IMG/VR virus record: IMGVR_UViG_3300004461_000088
Coordinates: 1 to 28,769 of that record
Length of the DNA stretch: 28,769 bases
Direction: 5' to 3' (one strand)
Origin: a virus
Below, piece by piece: positions 2,714-20,933 of this stretch. Position 1 is the stretch's first letter; every line of letters starts with the position of its first letter. The position numbers and the translations under genes were made by a program. The notes under the pieces are model-generated. The model had not been told where the DNA came from and did no database searches. It worked only from the letters and a program-made list of their open reading frames with translations.

Positions 2714-4881
2714 TGCAGAACGTACAATTGTATATAGATGGAGAGCGTGCTGATTTATTTGAAGGAGACACAATTACATTACAGTCAAGCATACAGAATA
2801 TAAGAGATATTCAAAAGGTTTTTGCTGACTACACCAAAGGATTATCCCTTCCAGCTTCTAAGACAAACAACAAAATATTCAAGCACTTCTACAACTTTGA
2901 TATTGAGAATGGCTTTAATGCTAGGAAAAAAGTAAGTGCGGAAATACACATAAATTACGTTCCATTTAAAGTCGGTAAGATTGCTCTTAACTCTGTCAAG
3001 ATGAGGCATAATAAGGCTTTTTCTTACGACATAACATTTTTTAGCAATATAGTTGAATTGCCAGATAGATTAGGCAGTAAGTTGCTTGGAGACTTGCAGT
3101 TATTTATAGATGGTACTTATGATCATCCACTAAGTGAATCTAGTGTGAAGAATGGACTTACAACAGGATTGACTATAAACGGAAGCGCTAATGCTGTAAT
3201 ATATCCACTTATATCCGTAAAGAAAAGACTTTATTATGATTCTAGGGGTAATTCAGCTCCAGTAGGCGAAATATTTAGAGGCAACCTTCACTATAGTTCG
3301 GTGACAAGAGGTTTAACTTGGGATGATTTAAAGCCAGCTATAAAAGCAATTCACGTTATAGAGGCTATAGAGCAAGAAATAGGGATTGATTTCACTAGAG
3401 ACTTCTTTGGCACAACTCCTATGGATAATCTATATCTTTGGCTAAATACAGTGCCAGAAGATAACACAGAGGTTTCTAATACAGAGCAGAGTATTACTTT
3501 AGATGGTTGGAACTTGTATAATAGTACAGCTATAAACCAAATAATATTCTCTGGAACAAAGCTCAACCTACTCGTTAACGTAACTCCAGAAACATATAAA
3601 TATGAACTTACATATTCAATCCTAACAGGAGACACTACTACTCCTTATGTAGCGAGAATAATAGACGATATAACAAACACGGTTTTGTTTCAGTTTGAAG
3701 AGGCTAAAGGAGGTCAACAGCACCTTAGAACTTTGATAAATAATGGATCAGTAGATCCCTATAGATTAAGATTTGAAGTCACCTCAACAGGTTCCTTGTC
3801 TTTTAGCTCAACGGTAAAGATAGATTTACTTAGCGCAACAAATGTCTTGTATGATAGCGTAACTTATGAAACTGGTATTACAGGTGGGGCAATAAACACT
3901 GAATCAACTCTTCAGATGTACAAACAATTCCCTAAGATAAAAGCAATAGACTTTATTACTGGAATATGGAAAATGTTCAATTTAACAGCTTACTACGTTG
4001 ATGATATAAGGGATGCTAACTACGGAAAAATATACGTTGATACTTTAGACAACTTCTATAATGATAACACAAGCAATCCTTTAGGAGGTACAATAGACAT
4101 ACAGGATTATATAGATATTACTGAAAGTGTTATTGATTCAGCTCTACCATACACTGAGATAGACTTCAATTATCGAAAGCCTGACACTTTATTAGCAGAG
4201 CAGCACTTAGAAAAGTTTGGTCAAGTGTTTGGAGATGAGGAATATAGAGAGAACGAAGCTAATATAGATAATGACAGGATATATACCTTGAGTCTACCTT
4301 TCGCACACTTTAAATACGAAAGAATAAGGGATATAAATCCATCCACAAATAATGAAATAACTAGAATACAGTGGGGCTATTCAGCTTCTGGAGATATAGA
4401 TGAAACTACTGGTGATTATGATTCGGTGATATCTAGCCCCCTTTTATTTTATGGAGTAAGAGAGACTGGAATACCAAGTGGAGACGGAATAAATTGGATT
4501 AATAATTTTGGCTCTGGTTCTGCATTATCGGAGCAGCTCCTTAATTATTGGAGACCATCTAACGCAAATGAAGCTGGTGGTTTAGCAATACCTCCTACAT
4601 ACTCATTAAATTTTGACGCAGAAGTTGATGAATGGCAATCTATTGATTATGGATTGGATAGTGGCTCTCTATTTAACAATTTCTACAAAGAATATATAGA
4701 GGAGGTTTTTAATCAGAAAAGAAGATTGTCTAAGTTCACTTGCCATCTTCCAGTTCAAATTGTGCAGAACTTTAAACTGAATGACTACATAAAAATACTA
4801 TCTCACCTATATAAGATTAACACTATAAAGTTAAACCTAAATACTGGTAAGGCTGAGGTTGAATTATTAAACATTATATAA
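2713..4881 (+). CDS. Baseplate hub / tail-associated protein
   Basis: 722 residues. The N-terminal region contains DYTKGLSLPASKTNNKIFKH, a pattern I recognise from large tail proteins of Bacteroidetes siphoviruses and prophages. The middle is beta-rich with repeated Ser/Thr strands. The C-terminus (YIKILSHLYKINTIKLNLN) looks like an edge beta-strand domain. It lies between the tail tip gene and the tape measure, the usual place of a hub or Tal-like protein, although the order here is reversed (hub before tape measure). No lytic or peptidase motif was found. The start is well supported by the one-base stop/start overlap with the upstream gene. Confidence 0.55.
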   Translation: MQNVQLYIDGERADLFEGDTITLQSSIQNIRDIQKVFADYTKGLSLPASKTNNKIFKHFYNFDIENGFNARKKVSAEIHINYVPFKVGKIALNSVKMRHNKAFSYDITFFSNIVELPDRLGSKLLGDLQLFIDGTYDHPLSESSVKNGLTTGLTINGSANAVIYPLISVKKRLYYDSRGNSAPVGEIFRGNLHYSSVTRGLTWDDLKPAIKAIHVIEAIEQEIGIDFTRDFFGTTPMDNLYLWLNTVPEDNTEVSNTEQSITLDGWNLYNSTAINQIIFSGTKLNLLVNVTPETYKYELTYSILTGDTTTPYVARIIDDITNTVLFQFEEAKGGQQHLRTLINNGSVDPYRLRFEVTSTGSLSFSSTVKIDLLSATNVLYDSVTYETGITGGAINTESTLQMYKQFPKIKAIDFITGIWKMFNLTAYYVDDIRDANYGKIYVDTLDNFYNDNTSNPLGGTIDIQDYIDITESVIDSALPYTEIDFNYRKPDTLLAEQHLEKFGQVFGDEEYRENEANIDNDRIYTLSLPFAHFKYERIRDINPSTNNEITRIQWGYSASGDIDETTGDYDSVISSPLLFYGVRETGIPSGDGINWINNFGSGSALSEQLLNYWRPSNANEAGGLAIPPTYSLNFDAEVDEWQSIDYGLDSGSLFNNFYKEYIEEVFNQKRRLSKFTCHLPVQIVQNFKLNDYIKILSHLYKINTIKLNLNTGKAEVELLNII

Positions 4882-5024
4882 TGATAAAGACAATTATAGA
4901 GCTGCTAAAGACTGGTGACTTCTACGGTGTTGACCAAAGGATAGATATCGCTAAAGGCAAGTATAAAGCACCAGAGAACATAAAAGAATTAAAGGAATCC
5001 GTAAAGAGAAGAAGTAATGGCTGA
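4881..5024 (+). CDS. Small hydrophilic protein between hub and tape measure
   Basis: 47 residues, not recognised. It starts with a one-base overlap on the hub stop codon (taATG) and overlaps the tape measure start by 8 bases, so it is linked to both neighbours by translational coupling. It is rich in Lys, Glu and Ile, with a helical N-terminal stretch (MIKTIIELLKTGDFYGVDQR) and a basic C-terminus (VKRRSNG). Its place next to the tape measure could indicate a tail assembly chaperone or small tip component, but nothing in the sequence proves this. Confidence 0.65.
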   Translation: MIKTIIELLKTGDFYGVDQRIDIAKGKYKAPENIKELKESVKRRSNG

Positions 5025-6891
5025 TAACAATAAAAAAATAACATATACCGTAGAGGTAAACGACAAAGGTAAGGTTAAAGTAGAAGGTTTAACAAGGGGT
5101 TTTGTTAGATTAGATAATGCGGTAAGAAAGGTTAATACTGATTTAGCAAAACAAGCTGCTGCGTTTAACTCTACCGCTTCTGCCGGGAATAATATGATTA
5201 ATAAGACAGGTTTAGCTGGTGCTACTCTTGTCGAATTAGGTAGGACTATATCTGACTCTAATTACGGAATTAGAGGTATGGCGAACAACATATCCCAATT
5301 GTCAACTCTTTTTATAACATTAACAGTAACTAGCGGTGGATTAGCAAAGGGTTTAAAGGAATTATGGAAGGCACTTTATGGGCCACTTGGTTTGATTTTG
5401 GTTTTTCAAACTGTTGTCACTGTAATTGAAGGTTTTACAATCAAACAAGACAAAGCTGCTGCTGCTGCAAGAAGAGCAACGAAAGCATTAAAGGAACAGG
5501 CTAGTGCTGTTGAGGATTTAGAGTCTAAGATAAGCGCTTTAGAACAATCTTTAAGTATAGTAGAAACTTTTGGGGATGGGTATCTTTCTTTAGGCGAAAC
5601 AGTGGACATATTGAAGCGTAAATTTAAGGACTTCGAAAATGGATACAATAGATTAAGCAAAGAACAACAGAAAGATCCAAAAACTGTAGGAAAATTGATT
5701 GAAGCCTATAAGCAATACACTTTGGTTCGTGAAAAACTGAGTGAAAAGGAAAAAGAAGCTCTTGCAGTACAAAGAAGGATAGCAAAAGAGGGAGAAAAGA
5801 TCACTAAAGGAGGTTTAACAATTGAGAACCCAGCACTTCTTACGTTAAGCGGAATAAACAGGGAGATAGCAGAGTTATACAAGAAAGAAACAAGACTGTT
5901 TCAGTTATTTAAAAAAATACCAAAAGGAGGAAGTGAATTTATTAGGGAACAAATAGAGGCCTTACAGCCATTCTTTGAGAAATTCTTCTTTGACATAAAT
6001 ACAAAAGGCAAACAGGTGTTTCAGAGCAGTATTGAAGATGTTGAATTTTTCGGAAGGATTCTTAACGAAAACGCTGATGCTGCCACGAAAGAATTGGCTG
6101 AACAAGGCAGATTACGTGAAGAGCAGAGAAAAAGAGAAGAAGATTCACTAAAGGCAGGACTAAAAGCAATAAAAGAAGAAGCTCAAGAGATTTCTTCGAT
6201 ATTTAGAGCCACTCAATCTTCACTTGGTTATGTAAATGATGTTGTTATGTCTTACCACGACGCTAGAATGCAAGCACTAGCCAGAGAGAGGGATTATATC
6301 CTTAATTCGGGTAGATTGACAGAAGGACAGCAGAGAGTTGCAATAAGAGAAATAGAGAAGAGAGAAATTGCTGCTCAAAAAAGAAAAATAAAGTCTGAAA
6401 GAGATATGTTTACTCTAAAGCAGTCTCTACTTATAGCTGAAGAAATAATGAAGGCAAAAGCAGATATGGCTGCTCAGGCAAGAAAGATGAACATCTTATT
6501 AACTGATATTGGCACTGCTTCCGCTGTTCAAGCTGGTAAAGCTAAAATGTCTATAGGTCAGTTTGCTGCTGAAGGAGGATTGAAGGGGATTGCTGCTTAT
6601 GCTATATCTATTGCAGGTATGTTGGCCTCTATATTTGCTGCCAGAAAGAAAGCAAGTGCAGCTATAGCTAATTTGGGAGGAGTATCCGCTTCATCTAGTG
6701 GCGGTGATTCAGGAGGAACTAGCTTTATCGCTCCAGACTTCAATATAGTGGGTTCCTCAGCTACTAGTCAATTATCACAAACTATAGCAGATTCAGAGAA
6801 ATCACCATTAAAAGCATACGTTGTAACGGATGACATCAATAATGCTCAAGAATTTGACAGAAAAGTAAATGCACAGGCTTCTCTAGGTTAA
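5017..6891 (+). CDS. Tape measure protein
   Basis: 624 residues. It has the expected composition: long Ala/Lys/Glu/Gln-rich helices with coiled-coil character (about residues 145-300 and 370-490) and two hydrophobic segments, one near residues 118-136 (PLGLILVFQTVVTVIEGF) and one near 540-560 (AYAISIAGMLASIFAARKK). The C-terminus is Gly/Ser-rich. If the usual rule of about 1.5 angstrom of tail per residue holds, the tail is short, around 90-100 nm. The start overlaps a 47-residue ORF. It lies upstream of the head genes instead of after the tail tube gene. I saw no peptidase or lysozyme domain. Confidence 0.75.
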   Translation: MADNNKKITYTVEVNDKGKVKVEGLTRGFVRLDNAVRKVNTDLAKQAAAFNSTASAGNNMINKTGLAGATLVELGRTISDSNYGIRGMANNISQLSTLFITLTVTSGGLAKGLKELWKALYGPLGLILVFQTVVTVIEGFTIKQDKAAAAARRATKALKEQASAVEDLESKISALEQSLSIVETFGDGYLSLGETVDILKRKFKDFENGYNRLSKEQQKDPKTVGKLIEAYKQYTLVREKLSEKEKEALAVQRRIAKEGEKITKGGLTIENPALLTLSGINREIAELYKKETRLFQLFKKIPKGGSEFIREQIEALQPFFEKFFFDINTKGKQVFQSSIEDVEFFGRILNENADAATKELAEQGRLREEQRKREEDSLKAGLKAIKEEAQEISSIFRATQSSLGYVNDVVMSYHDARMQALARERDYILNSGRLTEGQQRVAIREIEKREIAAQKRKIKSERDMFTLKQSLLIAEEIMKAKADMAAQARKMNILLTDIGTASAVQAGKAKMSIGQFAAEGGLKGIAAYAISIAGMLASIFAARKKASAAIANLGGVSASSSGGDSGGTSFIAPDFNIVGSSATSQLSQTIADSEKSPLKAYVVTDDINNAQEFDRKVNAQASLG

Positions 6892-18567: not shown

Positions 18568-18990
18568 ATGTCTGAAAAAAAGAAATTTAAAGATACCCAA
18601 GTAGGACAATTCCTTTTAGATAAGATACCTGACGTTGTACAAGCAGTTGCAGGAGATACTTTAGCAGGAAACGTTATACAGGCCATTATAGGAGGTTCTG
18701 ATATGTCAGAGGAGGATAAGTCCGTTGCACTAAAGAAACTCGATTTAGAGAGAGCTGAGATAGACGGAGTGACTCGTAGGTGGGTTGCTGATGCTCGTAG
18801 TGGTTCTTGGTTAGCTTCTAACGTTAGGCCCTTAACACTAGCTTTTTTTTCTATTAGTTATGTTATCGGTTGGTTTAATGGTTTAGAATTAACTTCTATT
18901 ACAGGATTATTATCAGTTGTTATTGGAGGATATTTTGGTAGTAGAGGAGTAGAAAAAGTATTTGGTAATAAACTTCATAAGGATGGCTAA
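18568..18990 (+). CDS. Holin, three-TM (GTA-like) family
   Basis: 140 residues. The conserved centre, RRWVADARSGSWLASNVRP followed by TLAFFSISYVIGWF, then the C-terminal membrane segment with GLLSVVIGGYFGSRGVEK, matches the GTA_holin_3TM family. The N-terminal 60 residues are soluble and helical (KFKDTQVGQFLLDKIPDVV). It should form the membrane holes that release the endolysin. It follows the endolysin by 18 bases, and its stop overlaps the next gene by 8 bases. Confidence 0.8.
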   Translation: MSEKKKFKDTQVGQFLLDKIPDVVQAVAGDTLAGNVIQAIIGGSDMSEEDKSVALKKLDLERAEIDGVTRRWVADARSGSWLASNVRPLTLAFFSISYVIGWFNGLELTSITGLLSVVIGGYFGSRGVEKVFGNKLHKDG

Positions 18991-19117
18991 AGTTCAAATA
19001 AGCTCATATAAGACACGAAATAAAGTAAAACGTAAGGGAGTACACTCTAAGTCTAAAACAAGCTCTCTAAAGACCTCTAAGAACTATTCTAAGGCATATA
19101 GAGGACAGGGTAGATAA
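18983..19117 (+). CDS. Small, very basic protein
   Basis: 44 residues with many Lys, Arg and Ser and almost no acidic residues (KRKGVHSKSKTSSLKTSKNY, ending YRGQGR). I recognise this as a recurring small protein in Bacteroidetes phages and prophages, function unknown. It overlaps the holin stop. Nucleic acid binding or packaging with the genome is plausible. It is the last gene of the late operon, and its stop abuts the convergent minus-strand gene. Confidence 0.7.
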   Translation: MAKVQISSYKTRNKVKRKGVHSKSKTSSLKTSKNYSKAYRGQGR

Positions 19118-19432
19118 TTAAATTATATTACCATATCTCTCATTATTGAATTTACCCATTTCGTGCCAAAAAAATTCTTTATCTTTAGTAAATTCTTTGT
19201 GTGATTTTTTCCACCAGTTATAGTCTTTCTTGGTTTTTTTGTTAGAAGCACTATAATAACCTTCAAATTTCAAAGTATTAGGTTCAGTCCAATTTCTTAT
19301 AAGAATTTCAGTACTAGGATTGTCTTTAGAATAAAGAATCAAACTTATTGTATCATCATCACTAAAGTAATATAATACTTCATTTTCTGATATTAATTTA
19401 TTAGCTTTTTCAGATATTTTATATTGTACCAT
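19118..19432 (-). CDS. Orphan minus-strand protein, moron-like
   Basis: 104 residues, not recognised. The sequence is hydrophilic, rich in Lys, Glu, Asn and aromatic residues (DYNWWKKSHKEFTKDKEFFW), without membrane segment or helix-turn-helix. It is the only convincing minus-strand gene in the window. Its stop codon directly abuts the stop of the 44-residue plus-strand gene, without an intervening base. A promoter of Bacteroidetes type lies 26 bases upstream of its ATG. Such isolated genes with their own promoter are often cargo (superinfection exclusion or host takeover), but this is inference. Confidence 0.7.
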   Translation of the reverse strand: MVQYKISEKANKLISENEVLYYFSDDDTISLILYSKDNPSTEILIRNWTEPNTLKFEGYYSASNKKTKKDYNWWKKSHKEFTKDKEFFWHEMGKFNNERYGNII

Positions 19433-19534: not shown

Positions 19535-19602
19535 TAGAAAAACAAACAATCTAAAAGTATCTGATCCAACAGGCTATCTCAACTGAAGTATTGTAATTTT
19601 TA

Positions 19603-19619
19603 TAGTAGATTTACTGCTA
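19603..19619. other. Short inverted repeat upstream of the rightward promoter
   Basis: TAGTAG, a five-base spacer and CTGCTA form an imperfect six-pair stem, ending five bases before the TTTG box of the 19624 promoter. It could be an operator, but it is short. Confidence 0.3.
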
Positions 19620-19623
19620 CTGT

Positions 19624-19654
19624 TTTGCAAATATATATATTTTATTTAATTTAG
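19624..19654 (+). promoter_or_regulatory. Promoter giving a probably leaderless mRNA
   Basis: TTTG (19624-19627), 19 bases, TAATTTAG (19647-19654): good Bacteroidetes spacing. Only four bases separate the box from the ATG at 19659, so transcription should begin at or next to the start codon. Confidence 0.65.
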
Positions 19655-19658
19655 CAAT

Positions 19659-20024
19659 ATGGATTACAAATATTTTTCTTTTGATGAATTTGATTCCCCT
19701 GATAAAGTCGGTAGTGGCTATAAATATATGGATAGGGAATTTATAGAAATGTTAGATGAAGCTAGAGATATAGCTAAACTAGAATTTAAAATACTTAGTG
19801 GATATAGAACAAAGTATGCCAACACTAATATATGGTGTGCTTCAACTGCAAGCTCACACTTGATTGGTAGAGCTGCTCATATAAGATGTTTGAACTCTAA
19901 ATTCAGATTAAGGATTGTCGAGGCTGTTTCTATGGTAGGATTTAGGAGAATTGGAATACACAGGGATTATATTCACGTAGATAATGATGATTTAAAACCT
20001 CCATCCCTTTGGTTAATAGCGTAA
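19659..20024 (+). CDS. Second M15-like protein with altered zinc site
   Basis: 121 residues, clearly a paralogue of the endolysin at 18193 (same opening FSxxEFDxP, same SGYR, same SSH and HxD motifs). It keeps H67 and H106 with D108, but the Asp ligand is His74 (SSHLIGRAAHIRC), a GAT-to-CAT change. It also has two extra Cys (C60, C77). It is either an inactive relative or uses a His-His-His site. It lies outside the lysis cassette with its own promoter, so it may act early, for instance as an exclusion factor or a modulator of lysis. There is no signal peptide. Confidence 0.75.
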   Translation: MDYKYFSFDEFDSPDKVGSGYKYMDREFIEMLDEARDIAKLEFKILSGYRTKYANTNIWCASTASSHLIGRAAHIRCLNSKFRLRIVEAVSMVGFRRIGIHRDYIHVDNDDLKPPSLWLIA

Positions 20025-20039
20025 CCTTTTGTATATTTG
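20008..20039 (+). promoter_or_regulatory. Strong Bacteroidetes-type promoter
   Basis: TTTG (20008-20011), 20 bases, TATATTTG (20032-20039): a full match to the consensus. It overlaps the 3' end of the M15-like gene. The first start codon of a recognised gene downstream lies after a terminator. Confidence 0.7.
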
Positions 20040-20043
20040 CAAA

Positions 20044-20104
20044 GTAATCGGACATTATTTCTTTGGTAGAAAGGAGGGTGAAGTTAAGTAGCCCTCTTTT
20101 TTTT
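20044..20104 (+). ncRNA. Candidate short RNA between promoter and terminator
   Basis: About 60 bases from the predicted start of the 20008 promoter to the T tract of the terminator. It encodes no convincing peptide. It contains a Shine-Dalgarno-like AAGGAGGG inside the terminator stem and a possible competing hairpin (CTTT/AAAG, 20061-20073). It could be a small RNA or an attenuated leader for the replication operon. Confidence 0.45.
20070..20104 (+). terminator. Rho-independent terminator before the early operon
   Basis: A six-pair core (20074-20079 with 20091-20096), extended by A-T pairs to the T run, with an 11-base loop and eight T. It lies 45 bases after the stop of the M15-like gene. 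Confidence 0.75.
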
Positions 20105-20177: not shown

Positions 20178-20363
20178 ATGAAACACTTTTACGACTTATC
20201 CTCTTACTTAAAACTTCGTATAGAGGCATTACAATCCAGAAACGCTAAACTAGAGTATGAGGTAGACCGACTAAGAACATTCTTATTCGAGGTTACTGAT
20301 GCGGACTGTCCTGTAGAGTACAAGGATATAGTTAGAAAAGAAATCGTCAAAGAAGAAGTTTAA
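20178..20363 (+). CDS. Small coiled-coil protein opening the early operon
   Basis: 61 residues, mostly one long helix with coiled-coil pattern (residues 10-40, LKLRIEALQSRNAKLEYEVD) and a charged C-terminus (KEIVKEEV). It is the first gene behind the 20131 promoter and 18 bases before the ERF gene. It resembles a small dimerising factor, and no catalytic or DNA-binding motif is visible. Confidence 0.6.
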   Translation: MKHFYDLSSYLKLRIEALQSRNAKLEYEVDRLRTFLFEVTDADCPVEYKDIVRKEIVKEEV

Positions 20364-20381
20364 CCGATTAATTTATTTATT

Positions 20382-20933
20382 ATGAACATTACTGAAAAAC
20401 TATTGAAGATTCAAACAGAGTTAAAAGCTCCTAAGAATCAAAGAAACGCATTTGGGAAGTATAACTACCGAAGTGCAGAAGACATCCTAGAGGCCATTAA
20501 ACCTTTAGCTGCTAAGCACAACGTGCTGTTTAAAATTACAGAAGAAGTGAAAGAGATAGCAGACAGAGCTTGTCTTATCTCAACAGCCAAGATGATTGAT
20601 GCTAGTGACCCTAGCTCCTCTGTAGAGTCTAATGCAACAGCATTTATAGACTTTGGTGCTAAAGGTATGCAAGCACCTCAACAGACAGGTTCTGCATCCT
20701 CCTACGCTAAGAAGTATGCTTTAGGTAATTTATTACTTATAGACGATACTAAAGATTCTGATGCTACTAACGACCACAGCACTACAGGTGCTATTCCTTC
20801 TTTAATGAAAGGTTCAGCTAACTGGTCAAAGGTTGTTAAGTATCTACAAGAAGGTGGAGATTTAGATCCTGTTCTTAAAAAGTATAGTGTTAGTTCTACA
20901 CTTAAAACTGAACTACAAAGTTTAACCAATTAA
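20382..20933 (+). CDS. erf: ERF-family single-strand annealing protein
   Basis: 183 residues. The pattern fits ERF recombinases: N-terminal helix with KLLKIQTELKAPKNQ, the AFGKYNYRSAEDILEAIKPL segment, the central beta strand region, then GMQAPQQTGSASSYAKKYAL, and finally the acidic DDTKDSD stretch. It would anneal complementary single strands during phage recombination. It precedes the SSB-like gene by 10 bases and belongs to the same set as the RecE-like nuclease at 25547. A Lys-rich C-terminal helix follows a linker. Confidence 0.8.
   Translation: MNITEKLLKIQTELKAPKNQRNAFGKYNYRSAEDILEAIKPLAAKHNVLFKITEEVKEIADRACLISTAKMIDASDPSSSVESNATAFIDFGAKGMQAPQQTGSASSYAKKYALGNLLLIDDTKDSDATNDHSTTGAIPSLMKGSANWSKVVKYLQEGGDLDPVLKKYSVSSTLKTELQSLTN

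Follow-up and report, generated by a model that had tools for sequence, protein, structure and literature searches.

A Peptidase_M15_3 paralogue with a substituted zinc ligand, encoded behind a phage holin, is probably an endolysin-derived pseudoenzyme

The stretch of DNA analysed here, a virus record of 28,769 bases that we call the window, carries two proteins of the Peptidase_M15_3 family, P0001 and P0002. In P0001, a paralogue of 121 amino acids encoded on the plus strand at 19659-20024 and assigned to the M15_3 (LAS) fold by reading frame, profile and AF2 model, His74 replaces the zinc-ligand Asp. We propose that P0001 is probably an endolysin-derived pseudoenzyme, in which an ancestral M15_3 peptidase of the same gene position (the slot) was altered and kept by selection for a non-hydrolytic task, with its cleft used for binding and its action late. 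The first-pass annotation had already raised a pseudoenzyme as one option. At the level of sequence, the altered residues favour this option, and so do same-slot relatives of other phages in which the second zinc His and the substrate-binding Arg are gone as well; purifying selection acts on the three clades examined for it (H, E and I).

Results

P0002 (18193-18549, plus strand) is an intact M15_3 endolysin by reading frame, profile and PHROG match, with the ligands H65, D72 and H104. The M15 zinc triad His-x6-Asp ... His is absent from P0001, where the corresponding positions read His67 (codon CAC, 19857-19859), His74 (CAT, 19878-19880, at the position of the Asp) and His106 (CAC, 19974-19976), all on the plus strand. 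The initial description of two M15A-type proteins, one with the ligands H65, D72 and H104 and the other with both His kept and His74 at the position of the Asp, is therefore borne out. Both proteins score above the curated cut-off of PF08291 (32.3 bits for P0001 and 58.7 bits for P0002, with the cut-off at 23.2), both match the PHROG 894 endolysin family, and they are 42% identical to each other. P0001 thus shares its fold and sequence family with the Peptidase_M15_3/phrog_894 endolysins, but these have an Asp ligand where P0001 has His74. The substrate-binding Arg is present as Arg50 (19806-19808, plus strand), which by alignment we read as the equivalent of R138 of the Streptomyces enzyme. 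The portal protein of the window is 39% identical to that of the Nonlabens phages P12024L/S, and its ERF protein is 46% identical to that of Riemerella phages among the matches listed; together with the TAnnTTTG sites, this makes a Bacteroidota host likely.

The AF2 model of P0001 has a pLDDT of 96.3, and its best fold match is 1lbu (Z 14.3, rmsd 2.6, 115 residues aligned), which supports an LAS/M15A fold at the level of prediction; the next matches are M15 endolysins and hedgehog N domains at Z 8-10. Foldseek also placed 1lbu on top, with E 1.1e-3 and no match at or below 1e-3. The search result for 1lbu reads metallo DD-peptidase, and we take the entry to be the Streptomyces albus G DD-peptidase (M15A). 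This peptidase has D161 at the position of His74 in P0001. For the Streptomyces M15 enzyme, the ligands are given as H154, D161 and H197, together with R138 (PMC11266112).

Relatives with an altered metal site were collected in several scans. The first gave 11 loci, with His at the position of the Asp in nine and Asp in two (L012 and L013), an alignment-based scan gave 70 loci, and a scan with the divergent member L069 led to the E clade and to L104. When ligand states are written as the residues at the first-His, Asp and second-His positions, 113 aligned rows comprised 62 HDH, 22 HHH, 20 HEY, 4 HIY and 1 HKY, plus four fragments, L057 among them. A profile of the intact type yielded 563 confirmed loci, and the best 80 of these were taken, a best-first choice that favours intact forms; 78 new locus identifiers were examined, a few of them on contigs already in the set, and the main match was H-D-H in all 78 (76 by script, L164 and L177 by eye). 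An extra ligand-altered protein in one of these loci, L166, opened the R clade, whose own scan gave 53 loci. Among the 173 rows of at least 105 amino acids, the states were HDH 77, HKY 28, HRY 24, HHH 22, HEY 17, HIY 4 and HQY 1, and the first His was never altered (173 of 173). Counted by contig, there are 103 altered slot proteins (H 23 with the window counted, I 4, E 20, K 3, namely L104, L266 and L293, and R 53), but because some contigs are near-identical these are not 103 independent phages.

The H clade, to which P0001 belongs, consists of 22 full-length rows and one truncated row (L057, cut at a contig end) that are 68-100% identical to P0001; five of the 22 are one identical protein, the window's included. 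Both codons, CAT and CAC, are used at position 74, and both His codons are in use at each of the three His positions. The other ligand-altered slot clades have Ile/Tyr, Glu/Tyr or Lys-Arg-Gln/Tyr at the Asp and second-His positions, so that the second His has become Tyr there, and their Arg has become Val, Thr, Ile or Lys. The median net charge is +8.1 for HKY, +3.0 for HRY, +1.9 for HEY, +1.4 for HHH, -2.5 for slot HDH and -3.0 for HIY, and as it differs by state, one common ligand for all states is not assured. The R clade is homologous to intact M15_3 proteins (hhalign E 1.1e-20 over 118 columns), and its representatives L205, L248 and L241 had no significant match in Pfam or PHROG. Its model (pLDDT 90.1) matches 1lbu with Z 12.9 at an rmsd of 5.7 and 8q2g with Z 8.6 at an rmsd of 2.9, and the clade appears to be LAS-like, with lower support than for P0001. 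Among cellular sequences, 0 of 139 pattern stretches were confirmed as homologues in genome contigs. In phage records, the best match to P0001 among those listed is 40% identical, and the four inspected of the 124 records with P0001 relatives were all H-D-H. The R-clade query L205 had no match in phage records, and L248 matches M15 peptidases of Rheinheimera and Aeromonas phages at 27-29% among the matches listed.

In the window, P0001 is preceded by a holin gene (phrog_3427, 18568-18990, plus strand), a small basic ORF of 51 amino acids (18962-19117, plus strand, with limits set from its length and the stop at 19117) and an ORF of 104 amino acids on the minus strand (19118-19432). It is followed by an ORF of 61 amino acids (20178-20363, plus strand), with 22 cluster members in the loci compared, and by the gene for the ERF single-strand annealing protein (20382-20933, plus strand; Pfam and PHROG). 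The 104-amino-acid ORF had no family match below E 0.04 in Pfam or PHROG, and the window and L017 are the only loci with an ORF of about this length listed here. Look-alikes of the small basic ORF, with the motifs K-R-P-G-V-H-S-K and Y-R-G-Q-G, were seen by eye in several D-, E- and H-clade loci. The usual order in the listed loci is late genes, an intact M15 or other lysin where present, holin, often a small ORF, the slot protein, often a 60-amino-acid ORF, ERF and a 90-amino-acid ORF; an ERF-like gene also lies downstream in both first-scan loci with genes listed. P0001 had been described as lying outside the lysis cassette, which is correct in that it is separate from P0002, behind the holin, the small basic ORF and one minus-strand ORF, but its position is that of the only M15 protein found in 18 related contigs.

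A separate wall-lysis gene or candidate is found upstream of the altered slot protein in 88 of the 103 contigs (H 22 of 23, I 4 of 4, E 15 of 20, K 3 of 3 and R 44 of 53), and the remaining 15 (1 H, 5 E and 9 R) have less than 1.2 kb of upstream DNA. The upstream lysin is an amidase in three R contigs (L240, L241 and L242) and two K contigs (L266 and L293) and a DUF5675 protein in one K contig (L104), so that the slot protein goes with more than one type of lysin. The five amidase contigs weaken the idea that it is an obligate partner of an intact M15 enzyme. For Pfam Amidase_2, hmmscan gave matches in L240 and L241, and a search of the records gave matches in L241, L266, L293 and L291. As this record search did not pick up L240 and L242, which score equally against the L240 query, its negatives are not absolute. 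The DUF5675 protein of L104 (1179-1628) is at the position of the lysis enzyme and adjoins the ligand-altered M15 protein, and from this position we would guess that it represents an unrecognised lysin family. The intact-type copies in L016 and L028 are cut by contig ends. In L027 the intact-type endolysin copy (4747-5133) is split by a frameshift, which could be an assembly error.

An H-D-H protein occupies the slot in 28 contigs, 21 with upstream DNA and 7 with too little. In 18 of the 21 (at least 1.4 kb upstream) the whole record has exactly one PF08291 match; the whole records also gave no Amidase_2 match in the record search, with the reservation on its negatives made above, and no protein like the DUF5675 protein of L104 was present in the DNA examined. 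We infer that, as far as the families searched are concerned (PF08291, Amidase_2 and L104-type DUF5675), the slot H-D-H protein is the sole endolysin of these 18 contigs. The other three (L050, L051 and L056) have a second M15 protein despite an H-D-H protein in the slot, and these exceptions oppose a strict rule that ligand loss accompanies a second lysin. In L050 a Mom-like DNA modification gene (PF25680, 2588-3256) lies directly 5' of the slot M15 gene, and L056 has an ORF of 222 amino acids at the matching place.

Three trees were made, leaving out seven fragments shorter than 100 amino acids in the first, rows shorter than 92 in the second, and rows shorter than 105 in the third, which was reduced to 70 rows by thinning at 90% identity or more. 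In the tree without the R clade and with three variable columns omitted (109 rows), the slot proteins form one group of 64 rows (99/93), inside which the H clade (99/93) and an E/K clade (99/89) are found; the I clade groups with slot H-D-H proteins. This tree requires at least four changes at position 74, at least two at position 106 and at least three at position 50. When the R clade is included (70 thinned rows, midpoint root), its proteins group together (100/100), and a long branch separates them from every other row, intact or altered, so that it is gene order that places them in the slot; here there are 9 changes at position 74, 3 at position 106, 11 at position 50 and none at position 67. 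When only the slot rows are scored as dead or live, unordered parsimony gives one change. Likewise, ligand loss and a second lysin give one independent pair (in 57 rows, 42 altered ones have a lysin or candidate, counting L104; of the intact ones, 12 lack it and 3 have it), and with only one pair the association is not significant. Counting of changes is compatible with one loss plus one regain, but as a regain must restore several residues, repeated loss seems to us the more likely course.

We also looked at the signals for expression. P0001 had been given its own promoter and an mRNA probably starting at its ATG. The strict upstream TTG-N18-22-TAnnTTTG site proved to lie on the minus strand, and the plus strand has only an imperfect core (TAATTTAG). 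With the strict promoter on the opposite strand (19628-19657, TTG at 19657 and core at 19635-19628, a promoter-like site of the TTG-N-TAnnTTTG type that would serve the minus-strand element described below), a leaderless mRNA of P0001 is unproven. The Bacteroidota promoter has TAnnTTTG at -7 and TTTG at -33, of which only the -7 element was confirmed in Flavobacterium johnsoniae, according to PMC7366714; only about 3.7% of Bacteroides 5' UTRs are shorter than 10 nt (same source), so a leaderless mRNA needs evidence.

Strict plus-strand sites are present within 200 bases ahead of the slot gene in 5 of 104 slot loci, some of which have little upstream DNA, and between -90 and +200 of the slot-gene stop in 44 of 104 distinct slot loci (R 30 of 46, H 8 of 20, E 3 of 18, H-D-H 2 of 16, K 1 of 1 and I 0 of 3); the control, letter shuffles of one 290-base stretch, that of the window, gave 3%. 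In the R clade and in some H-clade loci, the promoter of the replication genes thus appears to lie behind the slot gene, and the lysis unit would then end with that gene. In the slot H-D-H, E and I loci the motif is infrequent behind the gene and does not decide lateness. The window has such a strict promoter-like site (TTG-N20-TAnnTTTG, 20009-20039, plus strand) at the 3' end of P0001, directed towards the replication genes, and behind it a 12-bp hairpin running into a U-run that resembles a terminator or attenuator (20068-20102, plus strand); 21 of 200 shuffles fold at least as well as this hairpin. The promoter-like site, with the hairpin and U-run within about 70 bases behind it (20009-20104, plus strand), could yield a short RNA or an attenuated leader of the replication genes. 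A simple terminator scan found none, and a sigma-70 scan found 12 sites compared to 8.1 (sd 2.6) in shuffles.

Upstream of P0001, the minus strand holds a conserved structured element (19558-19622), a candidate small RNA with two covarying hairpins that would be transcribed away from the paralogue. The 65-base element is conserved across the H, I, K and slot H-D-H clades, 98% of the cells in its hairpins are paired with 0 of 500 shuffles as high, and the outer pair is CG in 12 cases, AU in 10, GC in 5, UA in 1 and unpaired in 2. Folding of single sequences speaks against it: the window sequence does no better than shuffles (z +1.8), and that of L104 only slightly better (z -0.5). An exact pattern of the element occurs in 48 viral contigs, 14 of them new to the set; in these 14, the slot M15 gene adjoins it in 12, is missing in L291, and L270 ends there. 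Rfam at the gathering threshold gave no match for the window and three loci, and the searched E- and R-clade loci had no match to the element at E below 0.4.

Discussion

In our best reading, binding is the reason why P0001 has been kept, as an M15 homologue that is either non-hydrolytic or strongly altered. The ancestor of the H, I, E/K and slot H-D-H clades would have been an M15_3 peptidase encoded between the holin and ERF genes. Contigs where no second M15 or Amidase_2 protein was found have an intact H-D-H enzyme in the slot to this day, and in phages with a separate lysis enzyme the catalytic residues of the slot protein would have changed, here the Asp and elsewhere the second His and the Arg as well. 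The fold and the first His would have been kept, with selection holding the protein for a non-hydrolytic task, and the old substrate cleft would most likely bind a peptidoglycan stem peptide or a protein partner. Promoter-like motifs suggest that the slot gene is late, and action with the lysis genes is the most economical guess for what it does.

The main alternative is that P0001 is a working three-His zinc peptidase, which would have His74 as its third ligand and would still cleave peptidoglycan, perhaps with another specificity or metal. H67, H74 and H106 are invariant in all 22 full-length H-clade rows, with both His codons in use at each, and the seven rows of the window's subclade have kept both Arg50 and Asp103, so that hydrolysis with a three-His metal is possible. 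We nevertheless think it unlikely. In the H clade as a whole, position 50 is Arg in 12 rows, Val in 6 and Ile in 4, a loss of the Arg in 10 of 22, and position 103, by alignment that of the catalytic base, is Lys in 11, Asp in 7, Asn in 2 and Ser in 2, so that 15 of 22 have K, N or S there, although this position is variable even among H-D-H proteins. As 67 of the 120 columns of the clade are invariant, the invariance of the three His alone is a weak argument, and in other clades of this slot Tyr has taken the place of the second His.

The first-pass annotation also suggested a wall-binding exclusion factor. A wall- or envelope-binding protein that prevents superinfection would be compatible with a pseudoenzyme that retains its substrate cleft, but sequence inspection found no signal peptide or membrane segment in P0001, and the slot and promoter layout hint at a gene of the lysis module, so we hold this role to be quite improbable. 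Still less can be said for a decaying duplicate without function, which would account for the altered catalytic residues. All 22 full-length H-clade rows have full-length open frames, the altered protein is also retained in the R, E and I clades, and the median dN/dS (Nei-Gojobori, pairs with 0.05<dS<1.2) is 0.121 for the H clade (96 pairs), 0.069 for the E clade (32), 0.098 for slot H-D-H proteins (51) and 0.082 for the I clade (2 pairs only), with 0.167 for the intact lysis-cassette enzyme of the same phage group (68). The H, E and I clades, to which the computation was confined among the altered proteins, are thus under purifying selection no weaker than that on the enzyme, which disfavours plain decay. 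An error of sequencing or assembly, with GAT read as CAT, can be dismissed, since all 23 H-clade rows, from separate contig records, have CAT or CAC here, and the case that the first-pass annotation named as a refutation, Asp in all homologues, did not arise.

If P0001 is a pseudoenzyme, hedgehog offers a precedent for an M15-type zinc site that is used for binding and not for cutting (PMC11266112, PMC4102407), although it has been argued that hedgehog may be a peptidase after all (PMC6027127). The Sonic hedgehog N domain has the LAS fold in common with P0001 (Z 8 to 9), but it retains H-D-H, whereas in P0001 (H-H-H) the Asp itself is altered, and a signalling role is not implied. The review of inactive metallopeptidases PMC11266112 names Shh for M15, and the words phage and peptidoglycan are absent from its text. 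A search of the open-licence full-text literature, by title and start of the abstract, found no paper on an M15 or endolysin pseudoenzyme.

More tentatively, and with the odds somewhat short of even, many Bacteroidota phages may encode behind the holin an endolysin-derived LAS-fold pseudoenzyme whose metal site has been progressively dismantled (H-H-H, H-I-Y, H-E-Y, H-K/R-Y). It would be a non-hydrolytic factor of the lysis module that binds stem peptides or a lysis partner, and the counterpart in prokaryotic viruses of the hedgehog pseudopeptidase. In the most basic group, the Lys at the position of the zinc-ligand Asp might be a stand-in for the charge of the metal. If this is true, phages re-use the fold of their own lysin as a non-catalytic part, and as related phages hold an apparently active version in the same slot, such re-use is directly testable. 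It also calls for caution in annotation, as not every M15_3 match should be named an endolysin.
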